A stretch of DNA of 24,465 bases from a virus, in the IMG/VR virus record IMGVR_UViG_3300010885_004277, positions 1-24,465 of that record; one strand, given 5' to 3'. The notes under the pieces were generated by a model, which had not been told where the DNA came from, searched no databases, and was given only the letters and a program-made list of their open reading frames with translations. The position numbers were made by a program, and so were the translations under genes. Below are positions 1,866 to 16,618 of the stretch, piece by piece. Within the stretch, counting starts at the first letter, position 1; each line of letters starts with the position of its first letter.

Positions 1866-2525
1866 TTAATCTCCGAACTTTGAGCTAGCTTCAGTAGCTA
1901 CCCAATACGTTAACTTGCTGACATCAAACTTAGCGATGCCCTTAGAAGTGATTGACACGTCGTAGTCGTTCTGAATCATCTTCAGATTTTCACTACGGAA
2001 GATAGCATTGAACGTGCGATCAGTCTCGCCAACCTCAATACTGAATGCATCAGCGGTTGGATTCTTTGCGTCTACTGCCTTAAGATAGATGGTGCTACCG
2101 TCGCCAGTAACAGAAATTTCTGGTAGACCCATAACGTGACCAGCACGCTGAACCTTCAGAAAGTCTGCGCTCTTCATGTTGAACATAACTTCCGGAACTG
2201 GAAAGTTGATGTCCTTGTTTGGAGCAACGGTGATAGTCGCTGCATCAGCATAAGCATATACTAGCTTCTGCTTACCAGACTTGATCACCGCCGAAACATC
2301 ACCAAAGTCGACCTCTGGGTTCTCAAACAGAGAAAGTGCACCCAAGAACCGAGGAAGTTCAAAGATTGCGAAATCTTTTTCCATTGTTTCATCAATCTCA
2401 GCCTTGGCCATGATTGTCTTTTGAGGAGAAACTGTCCTCAGAGTATTACCCTGACGAAACAGAATGCCACCATTGATAGATGAGAAGTTCTTTAGAACTC
2501 CAAGAGTCTTTTCACTGAAAATCAT
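1866..2525 (-). CDS. 45: DNA polymerase sliding clamp gp45
   Basis: Gp45 is the trimeric ring that tethers the phage DNA polymerase to DNA and, in T4, also binds late sigma gp55 and co-activator gp33 to activate late promoters. The product is 219 aa (T4: 228). It has the clamp-like N-terminus MIFSEKTLGVLKNFSSING and alternating beta segments with many acidic residues. The call is supported by size, composition and its position directly before gp44-gp62-regA. The ribosome site AAGGAG lies about ten bases before the ATG. The clamp matters for the accessory block upstream, because two proteins there end in clamp-binding-like peptides. Confidence 0.95.
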   Translation of the reverse strand: MIFSEKTLGVLKNFSSINGGILFRQGNTLRTVSPQKTIMAKAEIDETMEKDFAIFELPRFLGALSLFENPEVDFGDVSAVIKSGKQKLVYAYADAATITVAPNKDINFPVPEVMFNMKSADFLKVQRAGHVMGLPEISVTGDGSTIYLKAVDAKNPTADAFSIEVGETDRTFNAIFRSENLKMIQNDYDVSITSKGIAKFDVSKLTYWVATEASSKFGD

Positions 2526-2539
2526 AATATGTTATCTCC

Positions 2540-3502
2540 TTACTTCTTTGAACCAAGCTTAGATGGATCTGCCGTAGCAGATGCACCAACCATTGCAAGA
2601 TCAGCTAGTGTGCCACCAAAGATATAGGTGCCCACATGCTGTAGACCGATCCAAGGACATAGCCAGACCTTTAGACCGATATTTCTCGCCCACTGACAGA
2701 ACATATAATCCTCTGACAAATAGCGATTAGAATACTCGACGCCATCAGCGGACTTACGAGTATCATCAATAAATTCTAGAACTTGTTCCTGTGTTGCATT
2801 AGGATTAAGCTCAAAGAACCTACGGATGTCCTTACGGATGTGTGCATACTTATTATCGATAAGTGCATCAAACAGAGCCATGATCTCACGAGAGCCATCA
2901 AAGGCTGCTGTGCGAACGTGGTCAGGGCGATATACTAGTTCAGGATAGGCTGAACCCATCTTCTCTAGAGCGGACTTACGAATCATCATGAAGCCTGTGC
3001 CAGCCTCTAGAACCTCTGCAGGTTCACCGAGAGGAATCTCAGTCTTACCGCCAGCAGGATTGAATACATAGTCACCAACAAACTTCTCTAGAGCATTAGC
3101 GTCTTGATCTGCGATACCCTTGTCTACTGCTAGCTTGATCTTCTCCCAGCTAATGCACTTCTTTGGGTATGGTGCGCATAGAACATCATACTCACTCTCA
3201 TCAGACTGCAGAGCTAGCATCGTTAGGATGTCGTTAGCGTTGAAGCCGATATCAGAGTCGATAAAGAGCATATGCGTGCAGTCTGAACGCATGAATTCGT
3301 CTACGCAGTAGTTACGTGCACGAGTAATTAGACTCTCGTTAAAAAGATAATAGAAACGAACTTCGATTCCGTAATGAACTGCTAGTGCTGATAGATCATT
3401 AGTAGAACGTGTGTACATACCAGCACACATACCGCCGTACATTGGCGTAGCAACAAAGAGTTTGCGCTTTCTAATTTCTTCAATAGGTACCTTAATTTCC
3501 AT
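2540..3502 (-). CDS. GT-A fold glycosyltransferase, possibly DNA-base modifying
   Basis: The product is a 320-aa cytoplasmic sugar transferase. Visible elements are an N-terminal KLFVATPMYGG strand, NESLITRARN at about 55-64, the metal/nucleotide-sugar DxD motif in MLFIDSDIGF (Asp82 and Asp84), GTGFMMIRKSAL near 168-180, the likely catalytic acidic pair in YLSEDYMFCQWA (about 261-272), and a late metal-ligand candidate in GLQHVG (His289). This order fits GT-A enzymes of the type widespread in T4-like marine phages. There is no signal peptide or membrane segment. A longer reading starts at 3520, but GGAG sits about seven bases before the ATG at 3502. The gene overlaps the DUF3310 gene by 11 bases. 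As the last gene of the TET block it may add a sugar to a hydroxymethylated base; acting on cell-surface sugars is the alternative. Confidence 0.82.
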   Translation of the reverse strand: MEIKVPIEEIRKRKLFVATPMYGGMCAGMYTRSTNDLSALAVHYGIEVRFYYLFNESLITRARNYCVDEFMRSDCTHMLFIDSDIGFNANDILTMLALQSDESEYDVLCAPYPKKCISWEKIKLAVDKGIADQDANALEKFVGDYVFNPAGGKTEIPLGEPAEVLEAGTGFMMIRKSALEKMGSAYPELVYRPDHVRTAAFDGSREIMALFDALIDNKYAHIRKDIRRFFELNPNATQEQVLEFIDDTRKSADGVEYSNRYLSEDYMFCQWARNIGLKVWLCPWIGLQHVGTYIFGGTLADLAMVGASATADPSKLGSKK

Positions 3503-3782
3503 TCTTATTCTCCAATTCATGTACGTGTAATTGTATAATAGCGTAGTGAATAACCTTCAGAAGATCTTTTCGCCAATCTTCCGGAGTACCCTTACGCCCA
3601 TAACGTTGTGCATACTTTAAAACATTTCCGATGCAGAACCCTGTTCCGTGTCCTGAGTCGATAACAAACTCGGTAGCCTGATATTTATTCTTAGAATAAT
3701 GCTCTCCGTAAGTAGAGTCAATATACTTAAGGAGTTCATCAAGATACTTATCTTCGTTGTACTTATACGAATGATTCTTCAT
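3492..3782 (-). CDS. DUF3310 / SaV-like small phage protein
   Basis: This 96-aa protein carries the compact conserved pattern YLDELLKYIDSTYGEHY, FVIDSGHGTGFCIGNVLKYA and DWRKDLLKVIHYAII. That is the DUF3310 domain found in many phages; in T7 gp1.7 the same domain occurs in a nucleotide kinase. No P-loop is present here, so a kinase function cannot be claimed for this protein alone. It lies between the P-loop kinase and the glycosyltransferase and overlaps the latter by 11 bases, so the three are very likely co-expressed. A link to nucleotide metabolism or to base modification is inferred from the neighbours only. Confidence 0.85.
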   Translation of the reverse strand: MKNHSYKYNEDKYLDELLKYIDSTYGEHYSKNKYQATEFVIDSGHGTGFCIGNVLKYAQRYGRKGTPEDWRKDLLKVIHYAIIQLHVHELENKNGN

Positions 3783-3791
3783 GATATACCC

Positions 3792-3820
3792 ACTCTAAAC
3801 TAATTTTACAATAAAGTCAA
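3792..3820 (-). promoter_or_regulatory. Possible sigma70-like promoter before the DUF3310 gene
   Basis: On the minus strand TTGACT (3820-3815) is followed after 17 bases by TAGAGT (3797-3792), only ten bases before the DUF3310 start. The -35 matches the TTGACT used at the clearer plus-strand promoters of this phage, and the -10 matches the consensus at four of six positions. The initiation point would fall inside or just before the start codon, which argues against it. Low confidence. Confidence 0.22.
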
Positions 3821-4325
3821 CAGCCTTCTTCTGTTCTTCCAAAGTATTATGCGGTAACTTTTCAAACAGAAACATAAGATCAAAGTTAGTCATGATGTTG
3901 GCAATCTTAGATTCCCGACCAGCTAGCCAAGTTTCGTTCTGATTGCTACCACGCTCGGCGTATCGTTCTTTACGAGTAGCCTTCTCTGTCTGAAGATAAA
4001 CAATCTTGGTATCATACTTCTCTGCGCAGTTCTCTAGAAAAGAAGCTGTAAACAGACGGTCGCCTTCGAATAGTACTACAGAATCTTCTGGTAGTGTAGC
4101 TAGAAACTTAATAGCTTCGGGCTGAACTGCCATGCTCATACGGTCAGTACCAGAGAACACTTCGCCTTCTTCGTACTTACCAAGAATATAGATATTATCC
4201 TTTTGAAGATAGGGTACTAACTTGACCTCATTATACTTAGGCTCAACCTCAAAAACTTCAATAAGCTTCTTCATCAATGTTGACTTACCAGAACCTGGTT
4301 CGCCGCCGATAGCAATCACTTTCAT
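3795..4325 (-). CDS. P-loop kinase, candidate hydroxymethyl-base kinase
   Basis: The product is a 176-aa single-domain P-loop NTPase: Walker A GEPGSGKST at 8-16, then YILGKYEEG near 46-54, GTDRMSMAVQP at 59-69, a Walker B-like strand VVLFEGDRLF at 83-92, and an arginine-rich lid region (TRKERYAERGSNQNETWLAGRE). The layout strand-GKY-GTDR-EGDR resembles small nucleotide kinases and, as far as I can recall, the phage 5-hydroxymethyldeoxyuridine DNA kinases that activate the hydroxymethyl group for substitution. The start is the ATG at 4325, which shares one base with the upstream stop (TGATG). Directly following the TET and helical-transferase genes, it could phosphorylate a hydroxymethyl base in DNA. 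An ordinary deoxynucleotide kinase is the main alternative. Confidence 0.7.
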   Translation of the reverse strand: MKVIAIGGEPGSGKSTLMKKLIEVFEVEPKYNEVKLVPYLQKDNIYILGKYEEGEVFSGTDRMSMAVQPEAIKFLATLPEDSVVLFEGDRLFTASFLENCAEKYDTKIVYLQTEKATRKERYAERGSNQNETWLAGRESKIANIMTNFDLMFLFEKLPHNTLEEQKKAVDFIVKLV

Positions 4326-5398
4326 CAAAAAAACCTTTCAATATTATTTTTCGACACCAAAGAGTTTTTATAGAACGGCATGTCTTTTAGAGGGACCCAC
4401 AATTGCTGCTCGTCATTGAAAAATGATTCGATCCTAGGGATTCTTCCGTGATCCTTCAAAGCATGAACCCAATCTTTACAATATGCTTCTTTTGAGTTAG
4501 AACTGTTATTCTCAAACAGCAAGCTGTGCGGAATAACCGCTTGCCTACCCTCGAGATACTTATCCCAAAGCCATTCGTACTCTGGCCAATCTTTTTTCAT
4601 AAGCATAGTTTCAGTGTGCTGTTCATCAATATAACAACCACCGTACCTAGAACCCTTATGCTGCCTCTTATAGTTACAGCAAGCAGTTTCTAAGGTGAAA
4701 AAATTAGCTCTGGGAAAAGTTTTGTCTGAAATATATTCTGCTGCGGTTCTTTCAAGCATTTCGCAGTCAGATTTTGAAATGGTGTCGCCGGTCAAATCGT
4801 CTCTGCCGATGCAAAATGCCCATCCAGACCTATGACTTTTACCCTCATCAAACTCCATAGTAGGAGCCATAATGGGGGCGTCAATGAATCTTTCCAAAGC
4901 TTCTGAAAAACACCAGTGACCCATACGCCCCCAGTGAAACCATTCAGTTTGGCATTTGTTTTTGAGCTTGGTGTAGTTTTTGAACTTATCGTCGCTATCA
5001 AAGCAAGAAGAAATAAAGTTACCCAGCGTTCCATACGGCTTAACACTGTCAGCCACCGACTGTAAAAATTTGTCAAATACAATTTTTCTATATTTGCAAT
5101 CTGGTGAGAATAGCAGCCTTTTCTTTTCTTTAAAGAAAAACTCTATTTGAGCTGAAGCATCACTAGTGAATACTGGAAACTTGTCTGCGAACATAGATTC
5201 ACAAGGACCTGCATAGGTCGCCCCGTGGAAAAGTGCCATAACACAGCGTTTTTCAAAAGAGAAATCCAAATCATCAGCAATCCACTTTTCTACAGCAATA
5301 TCCGGCGAACAGTCGTTCGTTAGACAATGAAATTCATAAAACTTATCAAACCCAGCTTGACGATGCTCTGGGTCGCGGTAATCTATATTTGTATCCAT
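4325..5398 (-). CDS. Helical hypermodification enzyme (pyrophosphorylase / amino acid:DNA transferase-like)
   Basis: The product is a 357-aa mostly helical protein. Conserved-looking blocks are WFHWGRMGHW (153-162), GKSHRSGWAFCIGRDDL (186-202), LETACCNYK (236-244) followed by an Arg-Tyr-Gly and CYID (to about 258), and WPEYEWLWDKYLEGR (271-285). Combinations of this kind occur in the families predicted and partly shown to replace an activated (pyro)phosphoryl group on a hydroxymethyl thymine with an amine or amino acid (alpha-glutamyl/putrescinyl thymine pyrophosphorylases and amino acid:DNA transferases). I cannot say which clade this belongs to. The gene is fused by TGATG overlaps to the TET gene before it and the P-loop kinase after it, matching a pathway order. 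The C-terminus KNNIERFF resembles a clamp-binding peptide. Confidence 0.68.
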   Translation of the reverse strand: MDTNIDYRDPEHRQAGFDKFYEFHCLTNDCSPDIAVEKWIADDLDFSFEKRCVMALFHGATYAGPCESMFADKFPVFTSDASAQIEFFFKEKKRLLFSPDCKYRKIVFDKFLQSVADSVKPYGTLGNFISSCFDSDDKFKNYTKLKNKCQTEWFHWGRMGHWCFSEALERFIDAPIMAPTMEFDEGKSHRSGWAFCIGRDDLTGDTISKSDCEMLERTAAEYISDKTFPRANFFTLETACCNYKRQHKGSRYGGCYIDEQHTETMLMKKDWPEYEWLWDKYLEGRQAVIPHSLLFENNSSNSKEAYCKDWVHALKDHGRIPRIESFFNDEQQLWVPLKDMPFYKNSLVSKNNIERFF

Positions 5399-6696
5399 CA
5401 AAAAAAGTCTTCCAAAGATGCGTTGACTTGCTTCTTATATGGGTTTTCGATGTTATGCGAATCAAGGTAATCAAACCATTCTTGATCGTCCCACATAGCA
5501 GGAGAAACACCATTCCAAAGCGGACGCCAATACTTATGGTTTGTATTGAAACGACGTTCGTCAACAAACTGCTTACGTAGCTGTTCGTACTCCCAACCTT
5601 TAGTCTCTAGCATATCTTCACGAAAGTAAGCTACGATGGTCATACGGTCAGGGTTCTCGCCCCCAAGAGGAGAGTTACCGTGAATGGCAGTATGATTGGC
5701 GACCAGAAGTAGATCTCCTGGCTCTAGCTTTACAGCAGTACGATACTCTGGAAGAATAAGTTCTGCACCCTCCCAGCCCTTACCTAGTGCGGATAGGTTT
5801 GAGAAGCCTGAAGCCAAGTCGCCAGCGTCCAAATGAGCAGCAGTTCTAAAGTTATGGTTAACAGTAAGAGTTGTAAATACAGTCTCATCGATGAGAAACC
5901 TTGAATCTAGCTTATCAGCGGCAGCACGTTGAGCCGCCCAACGAGTGGGAAGCAGTTCACGAAAACAATGGTTGAGTTTGTTTAGAAACGGAAAAGATTT
6001 GGCAAAATCTTCTGGATGCTTCTCGGTAAAGGCTGTTGCTCGACCATAAGGAATGCGGGGATATCGAGAGTAGTAGCCAGCAACACCAGACATAACAGTC
6101 TGAGCATAGTTAGTTACAGAGATATAGTTGTCCCGAACGTGGATAGCGGCATTACGCTGCTCTTCACGAGAGTAGTTACCAAGACCCTCAAGCCAACGAT
6201 CGAACCAACCATAGTACGGATCGTGATCTTCTTGAACCTTAGAACGCATCCAAACATAACCACGGGTATCTTCAGACTCCGACTTACCCGTAAACCTCTT
6301 CTTAATATCTTCAATAGTCTCTTCATCAAGACTATCGTGAGAACGAGTAAGATACTCTAGTACGGCAACCTGATATGGTGTTACCCACTCACGACCGCCA
6401 CGATTGGTGGAGGAAAGAATGTTACCACGAGGACCAGCAGCCATACCACGGTTCTGAGATTCAGTAGCAGCACCGATAAGACCTTCGTAGCATAGATCCT
6501 GTTCTTCTTTGGTAAACACTCCCTTACGAAACTTAACCAGACAGTTTTCTTCGTTCATCTTCCCGTCGATAGAGGGACCATAAACGTCGGTATCTTCTGT
6601 AATAAGAGTATCGTAATTCTCTTTGTCTACAAACTTACCAATTAGATGGTCAGAGTTATACTTCTTGTCTGCGTAGATAACCTTAACTTCACTCAT
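5398..6696 (-). CDS. TET/JBP-family 2-oxoglutarate/Fe(II) DNA dioxygenase
   Basis: TET/JBP enzymes hydroxylate the methyl group of 5-methylcytosine or thymine in DNA using iron and 2-oxoglutarate. The 432-aa product has the family core: TVNHNFRTAAHLDAGDL with iron ligands His288 and Asp290, then GFSNLSALGKGWEGAELILP, a GDLLLVANHTAIHGNSPL segment giving the distal iron ligand (His339), and RMTIVAYFRE with Arg351 for 2-oxoglutarate. The roughly 270-residue N-terminal part, ending in a tryptophan- and arginine-rich stretch, probably supports DNA binding. The C-terminus NASLEDFF looks like a sliding-clamp-binding peptide. GAGGTGAAAG precedes the ATG, and a CATAAATA late-type promoter lies 38 bases upstream. 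All key residues are present. Whether the substrate is methylcytosine or thymine cannot be read from the sequence. Confidence 0.92.
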   Translation of the reverse strand: MSEVKVIYADKKYNSDHLIGKFVDKENYDTLITEDTDVYGPSIDGKMNEENCLVKFRKGVFTKEEQDLCYEGLIGAATESQNRGMAAGPRGNILSSTNRGGREWVTPYQVAVLEYLTRSHDSLDEETIEDIKKRFTGKSESEDTRGYVWMRSKVQEDHDPYYGWFDRWLEGLGNYSREEQRNAAIHVRDNYISVTNYAQTVMSGVAGYYSRYPRIPYGRATAFTEKHPEDFAKSFPFLNKLNHCFRELLPTRWAAQRAAADKLDSRFLIDETVFTTLTVNHNFRTAAHLDAGDLASGFSNLSALGKGWEGAELILPEYRTAVKLEPGDLLLVANHTAIHGNSPLGGENPDRMTIVAYFREDMLETKGWEYEQLRKQFVDERRFNTNHKYWRPLWNGVSPAMWDDQEWFDYLDSHNIENPYKKQVNASLEDFF

Positions 6697-15791: not shown

Positions 15792-16016
15792 ATGAATACC
15801 AATCTTACTCTCACTGCACGTTTCGTACGCTCACTATCTCGTGGTAAGGCTCTTACCGCCAAGCAGGCACGGAATCTTTTCGGGTTCTCAACCACTAATT
15901 CGGTTCGTGCTACTGTTTCTAATCTTCGCCGTAACGGTATGAAGATCGATACTGTCGCTCGTACGAATAGCAAGGGTCGCACTCGTAATCGTTACACTAT
16001 GACCAGTGCGGTCTGA
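15792..16016 (+). CDS. Small helix-turn-helix-like DNA-binding protein
   Basis: This 74-aa, very basic protein has the pattern LTAKQARNLFGFSTTNSVRATVSNLRRNGMKI, matching a winged helix-turn-helix with recognition helix around SVRATVSNLRR, followed by a wing-like TNSKGRTRNRYTM. Comparable small proteins are frequent in T4-like marine phages. GGAG lies eight bases before this ATG; an in-frame ATG at 15786 is too close to the ribosome site. The stop overlaps the clpP start by one base. It could regulate this cluster, and the palindromes in the two promoters upstream are candidate sites, but that is inference. Confidence 0.75.
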   Translation: MNTNLTLTARFVRSLSRGKALTAKQARNLFGFSTTNSVRATVSNLRRNGMKIDTVARTNSKGRTRNRYTMTSAV

Positions 16017-16618
16017 TGAGTAAAACGAATGGGGAGAGCTCAGGCTCTCCCTTTATTCTCAATTTTGAAGACAAAGATCCTCTGATTCCTAGTCTAGAAT
16101 CAAATCACTACTATTATCTAAACAAAGATATTGATCCTAGCACTACTGGGGATGTCATCCGGTTCATCCTAGAACGTAATCTAATGCCAAAGGAGAAACC
16201 GAAACAGATTAAGTTGCTTGTAAATTCTTATGGCGGAGACACAGCAGCGGCATTTGCCTTAATCGATATAATGAAGGGTTCTAAGATCCATGTTCATACA
16301 TATGGGTTAGGTTGTATTGCTAGTTCTGGTCTTTTGATCTTCATGTCTGGTAAAAAGGGTAAGAGATTTATTTCTCCTAACACAAGTATCCTTAGTCACC
16401 AGTTTACTTGGGGATCATTCGGTAAAGAGCACGAGCTATTTGCTCAGGCTCGAGAGATAAATCTAACAGGGTCTCGTATCTTAGACCACTACAAAAAGTG
16501 TACAGGTCTTCCAGAAAAGAAGATCAAGGAGTTTCTACTTCCACCAGAGGATCGGTGGTTGTCTCCTAAAGAGGCTATCGAGTATGGACTAGCCGATGAG
16601 ATTGTAGAGTACTATTGA
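16016..16618 (+). CDS. clpP: ClpP-like serine protease
   Basis: The product is a 200-aa ClpP-family peptidase with a complete predicted triad: Ser103 in GCIASSGLL, His128 in SILSHQF and Asp179 in PPEDRWLSPKEAIEYGLADEI. The oxyanion segment LLVNSYGGD (67-75) is also present. Bacterial ClpP forms a barrel served by Clp ATPases; no ATPase is encoded here, so it would act alone or with a host ClpX/ClpA. The T4-type prohead protease gp21 is encoded separately at 19167, so ClpP is probably not the head-maturation enzyme. The gene starts in TGATG overlap with the helix-turn-helix gene and ends two bases before the A-tract of the shared terminator. Confidence 0.92.
   Translation: MSKTNGESSGSPFILNFEDKDPLIPSLESNHYYYLNKDIDPSTTGDVIRFILERNLMPKEKPKQIKLLVNSYGGDTAAAFALIDIMKGSKIHVHTYGLGCIASSGLLIFMSGKKGKRFISPNTSILSHQFTWGSFGKEHELFAQAREINLTGSRILDHYKKCTGLPEKKIKEFLLPPEDRWLSPKEAIEYGLADEIVEYY

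Follow-up and report, generated by a model that had tools for sequence, protein, structure and literature searches.

A TET dioxygenase, P-loop kinase and amino acid:DNA transferase form a candidate DNA hypermodification module with clamp-like C-terminal peptides in a T4-like phage

Here we describe a run of minus-strand genes in a 24,465 bp fragment of a T4-like phage, the whole of IMG/VR virus record IMGVR_UViG_3300010885_004277, which we refer to as the window. In particular, the run encodes a TET/JBP dioxygenase (TET), an amino acid:DNA transferase (ADDT), a P-loop kinase, a DUF3310 protein and a glycosyltransferase (GT), and continues with gp45, gp44 and gp62. We propose, with a probability of roughly two in three, that the first three of these genes specify a post-replicative DNA hypermodification pathway in which oxidation by TET, likely of thymine, would be followed by the action of the kinase and then of ADDT, with TET and ADDT tethered to the gp45 sliding clamp. 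The capsid protein encoded in the window is nearest to those of DLP6 (69%), Cr30 and Sinorhizobium phages. (Note that because the record is a fragment, gene absences cannot be read from the window alone.)

In the pathway that we envisage, TET would act on freshly replicated phage DNA, oxidizing a pyrimidine at its 5-methyl group (most likely thymine, to give 5-hydroxymethyluracil); the P-loop kinase would phosphorylate the resulting hydroxymethyl group, and ADDT would swap the phosphate for an amino acid. An earlier reading of the window, made from its letters alone (the original prediction), had taken the chemical order to be the gene order; the order is here revised to oxidation, phosphorylation and substitution. 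Because gp45 would tether TET (through L-x-x-F-F) and ADDT (through I-x-x-F-F) by their C-terminal peptides, the kinase being untagged, modification would follow the replication fork. The features concerned, with the evidence for each, are as follows.

5398..6696, minus strand: TET/JBP 2-oxoglutarate (2OG)-Fe(II) dioxygenase, 432 amino acids (aa) (PF12851, invariant residues, AlphaFold model)
5401..5418, minus strand: TET C-terminal SLEDFF, proposed gp45-binding peptide (motif in relatives; matches gp43 tails)
4325..5398, minus strand: ADDT, 357 aa, with an ATG overlapping the TET stop by one base (PF18724, ViI orf247 profile, PaMx11 gp46 fold)
4328..4342, minus strand: ADDT C-terminal IERFF, proposed gp45-binding peptide (motif in window-type ADDTs; low-confidence tail)
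3795..4325, minus strand: P-loop kinase, 176 aa, proposed 5-hydroxymethyl pyrimidine DNA kinase (PF18751, phrog_800, co-occurrence with ADDT-like genes)
1866..2525, minus strand: sliding clamp of the gp45 type, to which TET and ADDT would be tethered (synteny, and a family shared with the DLP6 and Cr30 clamp genes)

All five genes from TET to GT lie on the minus strand where the original prediction had placed them. The one-base overlaps that it described are found at the TET/ADDT and ADDT/kinase junctions, where stop and start codons share a base (TGATG) and where starting from the ATG yields the originally stated lengths of 357 and 176 aa, and not at the remaining two, which show a 12-nucleotide gap (kinase-DUF3310) and an overlap of 11-29 nucleotides (DUF3310-GT). 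Conservation of the gene order, proposed at the time as a check, was borne out: the frame formed by TET at one end and DUF3310-GT-gp45 at the other is kept in 54 complete relatives (DUF3310 was uncalled in one of them), which argues that the arrangement did not arise by chance.

The window TET matches the Pfam family Tet_JBP (PF12851) with an E value of 2.7e-21 and 75.9 bits, against a curated cut-off of 34.9, and 23 relatives show no variation at its Fe(II) triad (H288, D290 and H339) or at its 2OG arginine (R351). The top PDB matches of its AlphaFold model (mean pLDDT 74) are all TET/CMD1 enzymes, namely CcTET, NgTET1, TET2 and CMD1. The gene is that of a TET/JBP dioxygenase with complete iron and 2OG residues, as had been claimed, and its product would be expected to oxidize 5-methylcytosine (5mC) or thymine in DNA. 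(Note that public records wrongly call the TET genes of DLP6, Cr30, S-CBWM1 and HTVC112P 'SNF2 DNA repair protein'.)

The helical 357-aa protein had been likened to the pyrophosphorylases or transferases of hypermodification. It is an amino acid:DNA transferase; a pyrophosphorylase is ruled out because Pfam and fold both give ADDT. The protein matches PF18724 (E 1.9e-15, 57.7 bits; cut-off 26.2) and belongs to the same family as M6 gp51 and ViI orf247, the latter being matched by the ADDT group profile with an E value of 9e-53. Its structural model is all-helical, with pLDDT below 50 over residues 301-358, and the top three PDB matches of the model are the PaMx11 gp46 5-phosphomethyl-deoxyuridine (5-PmdU) glycinyltransferase (probability 1.00, the next unrelated entry being at 0.04), with TM scores of 0.61-0.66 by target and an E value of 1e-3 against 8z2m/8z2n. 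Only this fold match is counted, since a match between ADDT profile A2 and 8z2m arises partly by construction (A2 includes M6 gp51; profile A4, which does not, finds none). Single-sequence PDB searches with TET, ADDT, the kinase and the GT gave no useful match. By its relationships, the protein would attach an amino acid at a phosphomethyl base in DNA.

The 176-aa protein is the P-loop kinase that it was taken for, matching Ploopntkinase3 (PF18751) with an E value of 1.8e-14 and falling in phrog_800 along with M6 gp54 (weak profile match, E 3e-5), a 5-hydroxymethyldeoxyuridine (5-hmdU) DNA kinase by Pfam. Of the Pfam kinase families, it was PF18751 that was matched rather than the named 5-hmdU kinase families PF18748 and PF18747. 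HMM searches, another check proposed with the original prediction, thus place both the 357-aa and the 176-aa proteins in hypermodification families (PF18724 and PF18751).

Linkage among these genes was counted in viral contigs, scans of which gave 30, 7 and 80 loci (the 80 drawn from 548 confirmed relatives), 54 of them distinct and complete from TET to GT or gp45. All 33 complete loci that have an ADDT-like gene also have the kinase, and the 21 that lack the former all lack the latter too. In 16 of these 21 ADDT-less loci the place of the pair is taken by a TET-associated glycosyltransferase (TAGT), and in the other five by a 336-aa protein with a 168-aa neighbor, neither of which has a Pfam match; by their sequences the two resemble a sugar transferase and a HAD phosphatase. 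The fact that the kinase occurs if and only if an ADDT-like gene does argues that phosphorylation and substitution form one unit, to which sugar transfer is the alternative. The glycosyltransferase that is really linked to TET is TAGT, which elsewhere stands in for the kinase/ADDT pair. The block in the window occupies a slot, flanked by TET and DUF3310, whose content is exchanged: relatives carry TAGT or other decorators there. These counts support a functional link between TET, ADDT and the kinase in one pathway; the part of the original prediction that had assigned the GT and DUF3310 to the same pathway did not stand.

Among the products of accessory genes in the ADDT modules are a glutamine amidotransferase, a GNAT acetyltransferase, an N4/N6 methyltransferase, an inositol-1-phosphate synthase and a further protein that we read from its sequence as amidoligase-like and that has no Pfam match. 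In loci L015, L019, L020, L024, L030 and others, glutamine amidotransferase, amidoligase-like and GNAT genes lie between TET and ADDT, which suggests that the attached amino acid may be further amidated or acetylated. Loci L029, L099, L142, L144, L156 and that of Cr30 (L004) combine an ADDT-like gene, a myo-inositol-1-phosphate synthase gene, a gene for a protein of ~126 aa and the kinase gene, suggesting an inositol-derived base modification.

The original prediction missed a feature of the C termini: in the window, the last residues are ASLEDFF for TET and NNIERFF for ADDT. We scored this terminal motif as [LIM]xx[FM][FL] in two sets of loci, the second of which was fetched after the motif had been defined. 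The motif is carried by 27/32 distinct TETs in the first set and 53/56 in the second, independent set (80/88 overall), and by window-type ADDTs in 6/6 and 1/1 cases, respectively. It is likewise present in TAGTs (4/5 and 1/2 in the first set, 13/14 in the second), in a 346-aa ADDT relative (2/2, then 3/3) and in a 258-aa methyltransferase-like protein (1/1, then 2/3). Other neighbors in the first set, including kinase, GT, DUF3310, PDF and clamp genes, gave 0/205; the second set gave 0/24 for the kinase, 0/32 for the GT, 0/33 for DUF3310, 0/40 for PDF and 0/27 for gp45, with single occurrences in gp46 (1/36) and GNAT (1/8). Genome-wide the motif is rare (14/735 open reading frames (ORFs) in four genomes), and its carriers include the gp43 polymerase as well as TET and TAGT.

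T4 gp43 binds gp45 through SLDFLF (PMC12746103), the tails of gp43, gp55 and gp33 are interchangeable (PMC2988020), and T4 alpha-glucosyltransferase binds gp45 (PMC13216743). In the same phages as the tagged enzymes, gp43 ends in TLESFFDD, TLEDFFG and TLEDFFG (the gp43 of the window phage lies outside the fragment), and in Cr30 gp43 ends in DLSSLFD and TAGT in DLSKLF. The C-terminal peptides of TET and ADDT thus resemble a cognate-type gp43 tail and are putative gp45-binding peptides. In the 88 distinct TETs, the L, F and F of the motif are near-invariant while the F codons vary and the L uses six codons, which argues for selection on the peptide; the codon variation rules out a DNA-level cause of the FF tail. 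(A D12-class adenine DNA methyltransferase that adjoins gp43 in C48C1, at L073 13480-14364, carries this clamp-like tag as well, its C terminus being STLDAFFG.)

To which base the pathway would be applied was judged from 15 long records that contain TET and measure 42 to 162 kb (five of them >100 kb), seven with ADDT and six with TAGT. None of the 15 has a match to the C5-methyltransferase family PF00145 or, at E 1e-3, to the thymidylate-synthase-type pool hydroxymethylase family PF00303, the window itself being a fragment. Neither family was matched in DLP6, C48C1 or S-CBWM1, and Cr30 lacks PF00145 and has PF00303 only as a full-strength thymidylate synthase match; PF00145 was found in 1/24 records, that of Melnitz alone (HhaI-like). 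Because the long relatives have neither enzyme, thymine appears likelier than 5mC as the substrate, and its oxidation in DNA is the best reading. Known relatives of ADDT and the kinase act on 5hmdU-derived bases (PMC6449724). That the hydroxymethyl group would come from oxidation in DNA, as originally predicted, is most likely.

The gene identities, their linkage, the exchange at the slot and the motif are observations, whereas each activity, the substrate and the clamp binding are predictions from sequence. Several observations weigh against the proposed pathway or its tethering. The Pfam family of the kinase, Ploopntkinase3, differs from that of the proven 5-hmdU kinases, so the exact substrate of the kinase is a matter of prediction. 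The relatives that were counted are not phylogenetically independent, and Fisher p-values therefore overstate the significance. In a second ADDT clade the motif has often decayed, being carried by 3/9 and 4/19 members, and because baseplate proteins too end in DFF, the motif alone is not diagnostic. Moreover, Melnitz carries a kinase and TET beside its HhaI-like C5-methyltransferase, and a C5-methyltransferase is present in one TET siphophage locus, which means that some relatives may act on cytosine; host-made 5mC may be the base that is oxidized.

Two alternatives draw on these points. It is improbable, in our view, that L-x-x-F-F was inherited as a TET tail, or belongs to a translational coupling signal, rather than being a clamp-binding peptide. 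In favor of this alternative, the relatives are homologous, the motif falls where stop and start codons overlap in the window and unrelated baseplate proteins likewise end in DFF; against it, the tag is also found on non-homologous enzymes (TET, TAGT, ADDT and two methyltransferases, plus gp43), its codons vary, many copies have extra residues past FF, and siphophages have Q-x-x-L-F instead. Unlikely, though deserving of consideration, is the idea that the same three steps act on 5mC made by a host or an unrecognized phage methyltransferase, yielding amino-acid-substituted 5-hydroxymethylcytosine. Weighed against the matchless PF00145 searches of the 15 long relatives, DLP6, C48C1, Cr30 and S-CBWM1, and against the deoxyuridine (thymine-derived) bases used by the solved or characterized ADDT and kinase relatives, this idea has in its favor that solved TET relatives act on 5mC, that in Melnitz the HhaI-like enzyme neighbors TET and a related kinase, that a C5-methyltransferase domain occurs in the siphophage locus and that the window is only a fragment. 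The HxDxxD motif of TET resembles that of 5mC-specific enzymes in a comparison made without any JBP sequence. Restriction data for DLP6 were not used as evidence of modification, since the paper names the enzymes and leaves the outcome unstated.

Our preferred reading, in which the clamp holds TET and ADDT by their tails, has a counterpart in siphophages of the P12024L type, which have TET and in which polymerase and clamp are unannotated. Near the siphophage TETs, 16/93 distinct ORFs end in Q-x-x-L-F and 0/93 in L-x-x-F-F; in eight T4-like genomes (1,357 ORFs), the corresponding counts are 0 and 28. The Q-x-x-L-F motif agrees with the bacterial clamp consensus QL(S/D)LF (PMC9690074). It is found on TAGTs, on an N6/N4 methyltransferase and a short C5-methyltransferase, on a P-loop protein and on a 151-aa unknown, and in P12024L only two of 58 coding sequences have it, those of TAGT (whose tail reads NQLEIF) and the methyltransferase (0.1 expected). 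The siphophage TETs themselves (L188, L189-L208) are untagged and end in TGYLTL or TGYLKL. It therefore looks as though decorating enzymes bear a tag that matches whichever replisome is copying the phage, a rule that is no more than suggestive for siphophages because the set is small and closely related. More broadly, we lean towards the idea that hypermodification enzymes as a class are docked at the fork by replisome-matched C-terminal peptides (L-x-x-F-F for gp45 in T4-like phages and Q-x-x-L-F for the bacterial beta clamp in siphophages that carry TET but have no annotated polymerase), combined in T4-like phages with oxidation of thymine in DNA and then a kinase and an amino acid transferase.

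The two remaining genes of the run are as follows.

3492..3782, minus strand: DUF3310 protein, 96 aa (PF11753; a neighbor of every module, non-specific)
2540..3502, minus strand (start at 3502 or 3520): GT-A-like glycosyltransferase, phrog_1574 (a neighbor, probably not pathway-specific)

The DUF3310 protein is as predicted (PF11753, E 8e-10). The GT is GT-A-like, as had been proposed, by a weak Pfam match (Glyco_transf_21, E 0.005), and strongly matches phrog_1574, of unknown function (E 3e-60). We consider it highly improbable that the product of this gene (2540-3520) adds a sugar to the hydroxymethyl base and so completes the pathway, which is what the original prediction proposed: the GT belongs to the same operon-like run and is found after TET across the phage group, but it also occurs in the TET-less phages Sinorhizobium phiM12 (51%) and Ochrobactrum OC (43%), and none of its 48 homologues has the clamp motif. 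Moreover, the GT and DUF3310 lie outside the slot, beside every module variant including those with TAGT. Neither was therefore retained as a pathway member, and glycosylation is not a supported step. Elsewhere in the window, a ClpP-like protease gene (16016-16618, plus strand; PF00574, E 1.8e-32) adjoins the capsid gene, on the strand opposite to its neighbors.

Each of these enzyme families is already known. The system resembles thymidine hypermodification in M6, ViI, phiW-14 and PaMx11 in that it shares an ADDT family (M6 gp51, ViI orf247), a fold (PaMx11 gp46) and, with M6 gp54, the kinase PHROG. M6, ViI and phiW-14 are thought to take 5hmdU from the nucleotide pool (PMC6449724). M6 has a ThyA-like gp58, whereas here the TET of the operon would make 5hmdU in DNA. 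Phage pathways that combine TET, a C5-methyltransferase and TAGT likewise oxidize a base in DNA and then decorate it, and relatives of the window carry TAGT in the slot; they differ in that the window has the kinase/ADDT pair and the T4-type gp45 motif, and that the long relatives lack a C5-methyltransferase. Iyer et al. reportedly predicted in 2013, and Burke et al. reportedly tested in 2021, that phages pair TET with sugar transferases. In kinetoplastids, JBP1/2 oxidize thymine in DNA and JGT then acts to give base J; here, decoration after such oxidation would fall to the kinase and ADDT. Glucosylated 5hmdU was unreported in phages as of PMC6449724. T4 alpha-glucosyltransferase is a precedent for a base-decorating enzyme coupled to the sliding clamp (PMC13216743); the enzymes here are different, and a short gp43-like peptide is carried by several unrelated ones, including an oxygenase. 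The route from TET to the kinase and ADDT and the replisome-matched clamp tethering appear undescribed, and we found no description of clamp peptides on TET, TAGT or ADDT; for both, priority is unproven, the main earlier papers having been outside our check.

If the proposal is correct, enzymes riding the replication clamp could decorate the genome before host restriction or CRISPR acts, and new amino-acid-modified bases would be made from thymine in DNA with the nucleotide pool unaltered. Isolates are at hand for direct measurement, in particular Cr30 for the kinase/ADDT route and DLP6 for TET. Cr30, a Caulobacter phage with C. crescentus as its laboratory host, has TET, ADDT, the kinase and TAGT together. 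Since amino acid, sugar, inositol-synthase, amidoligase-like and glutamine-amidotransferase modules are all found with the same TET in front of them, the slot would supply a list of candidates for DNA modification, and the clamp tag would offer a simple sequence handle with which to find further DNA-modifying enzymes.

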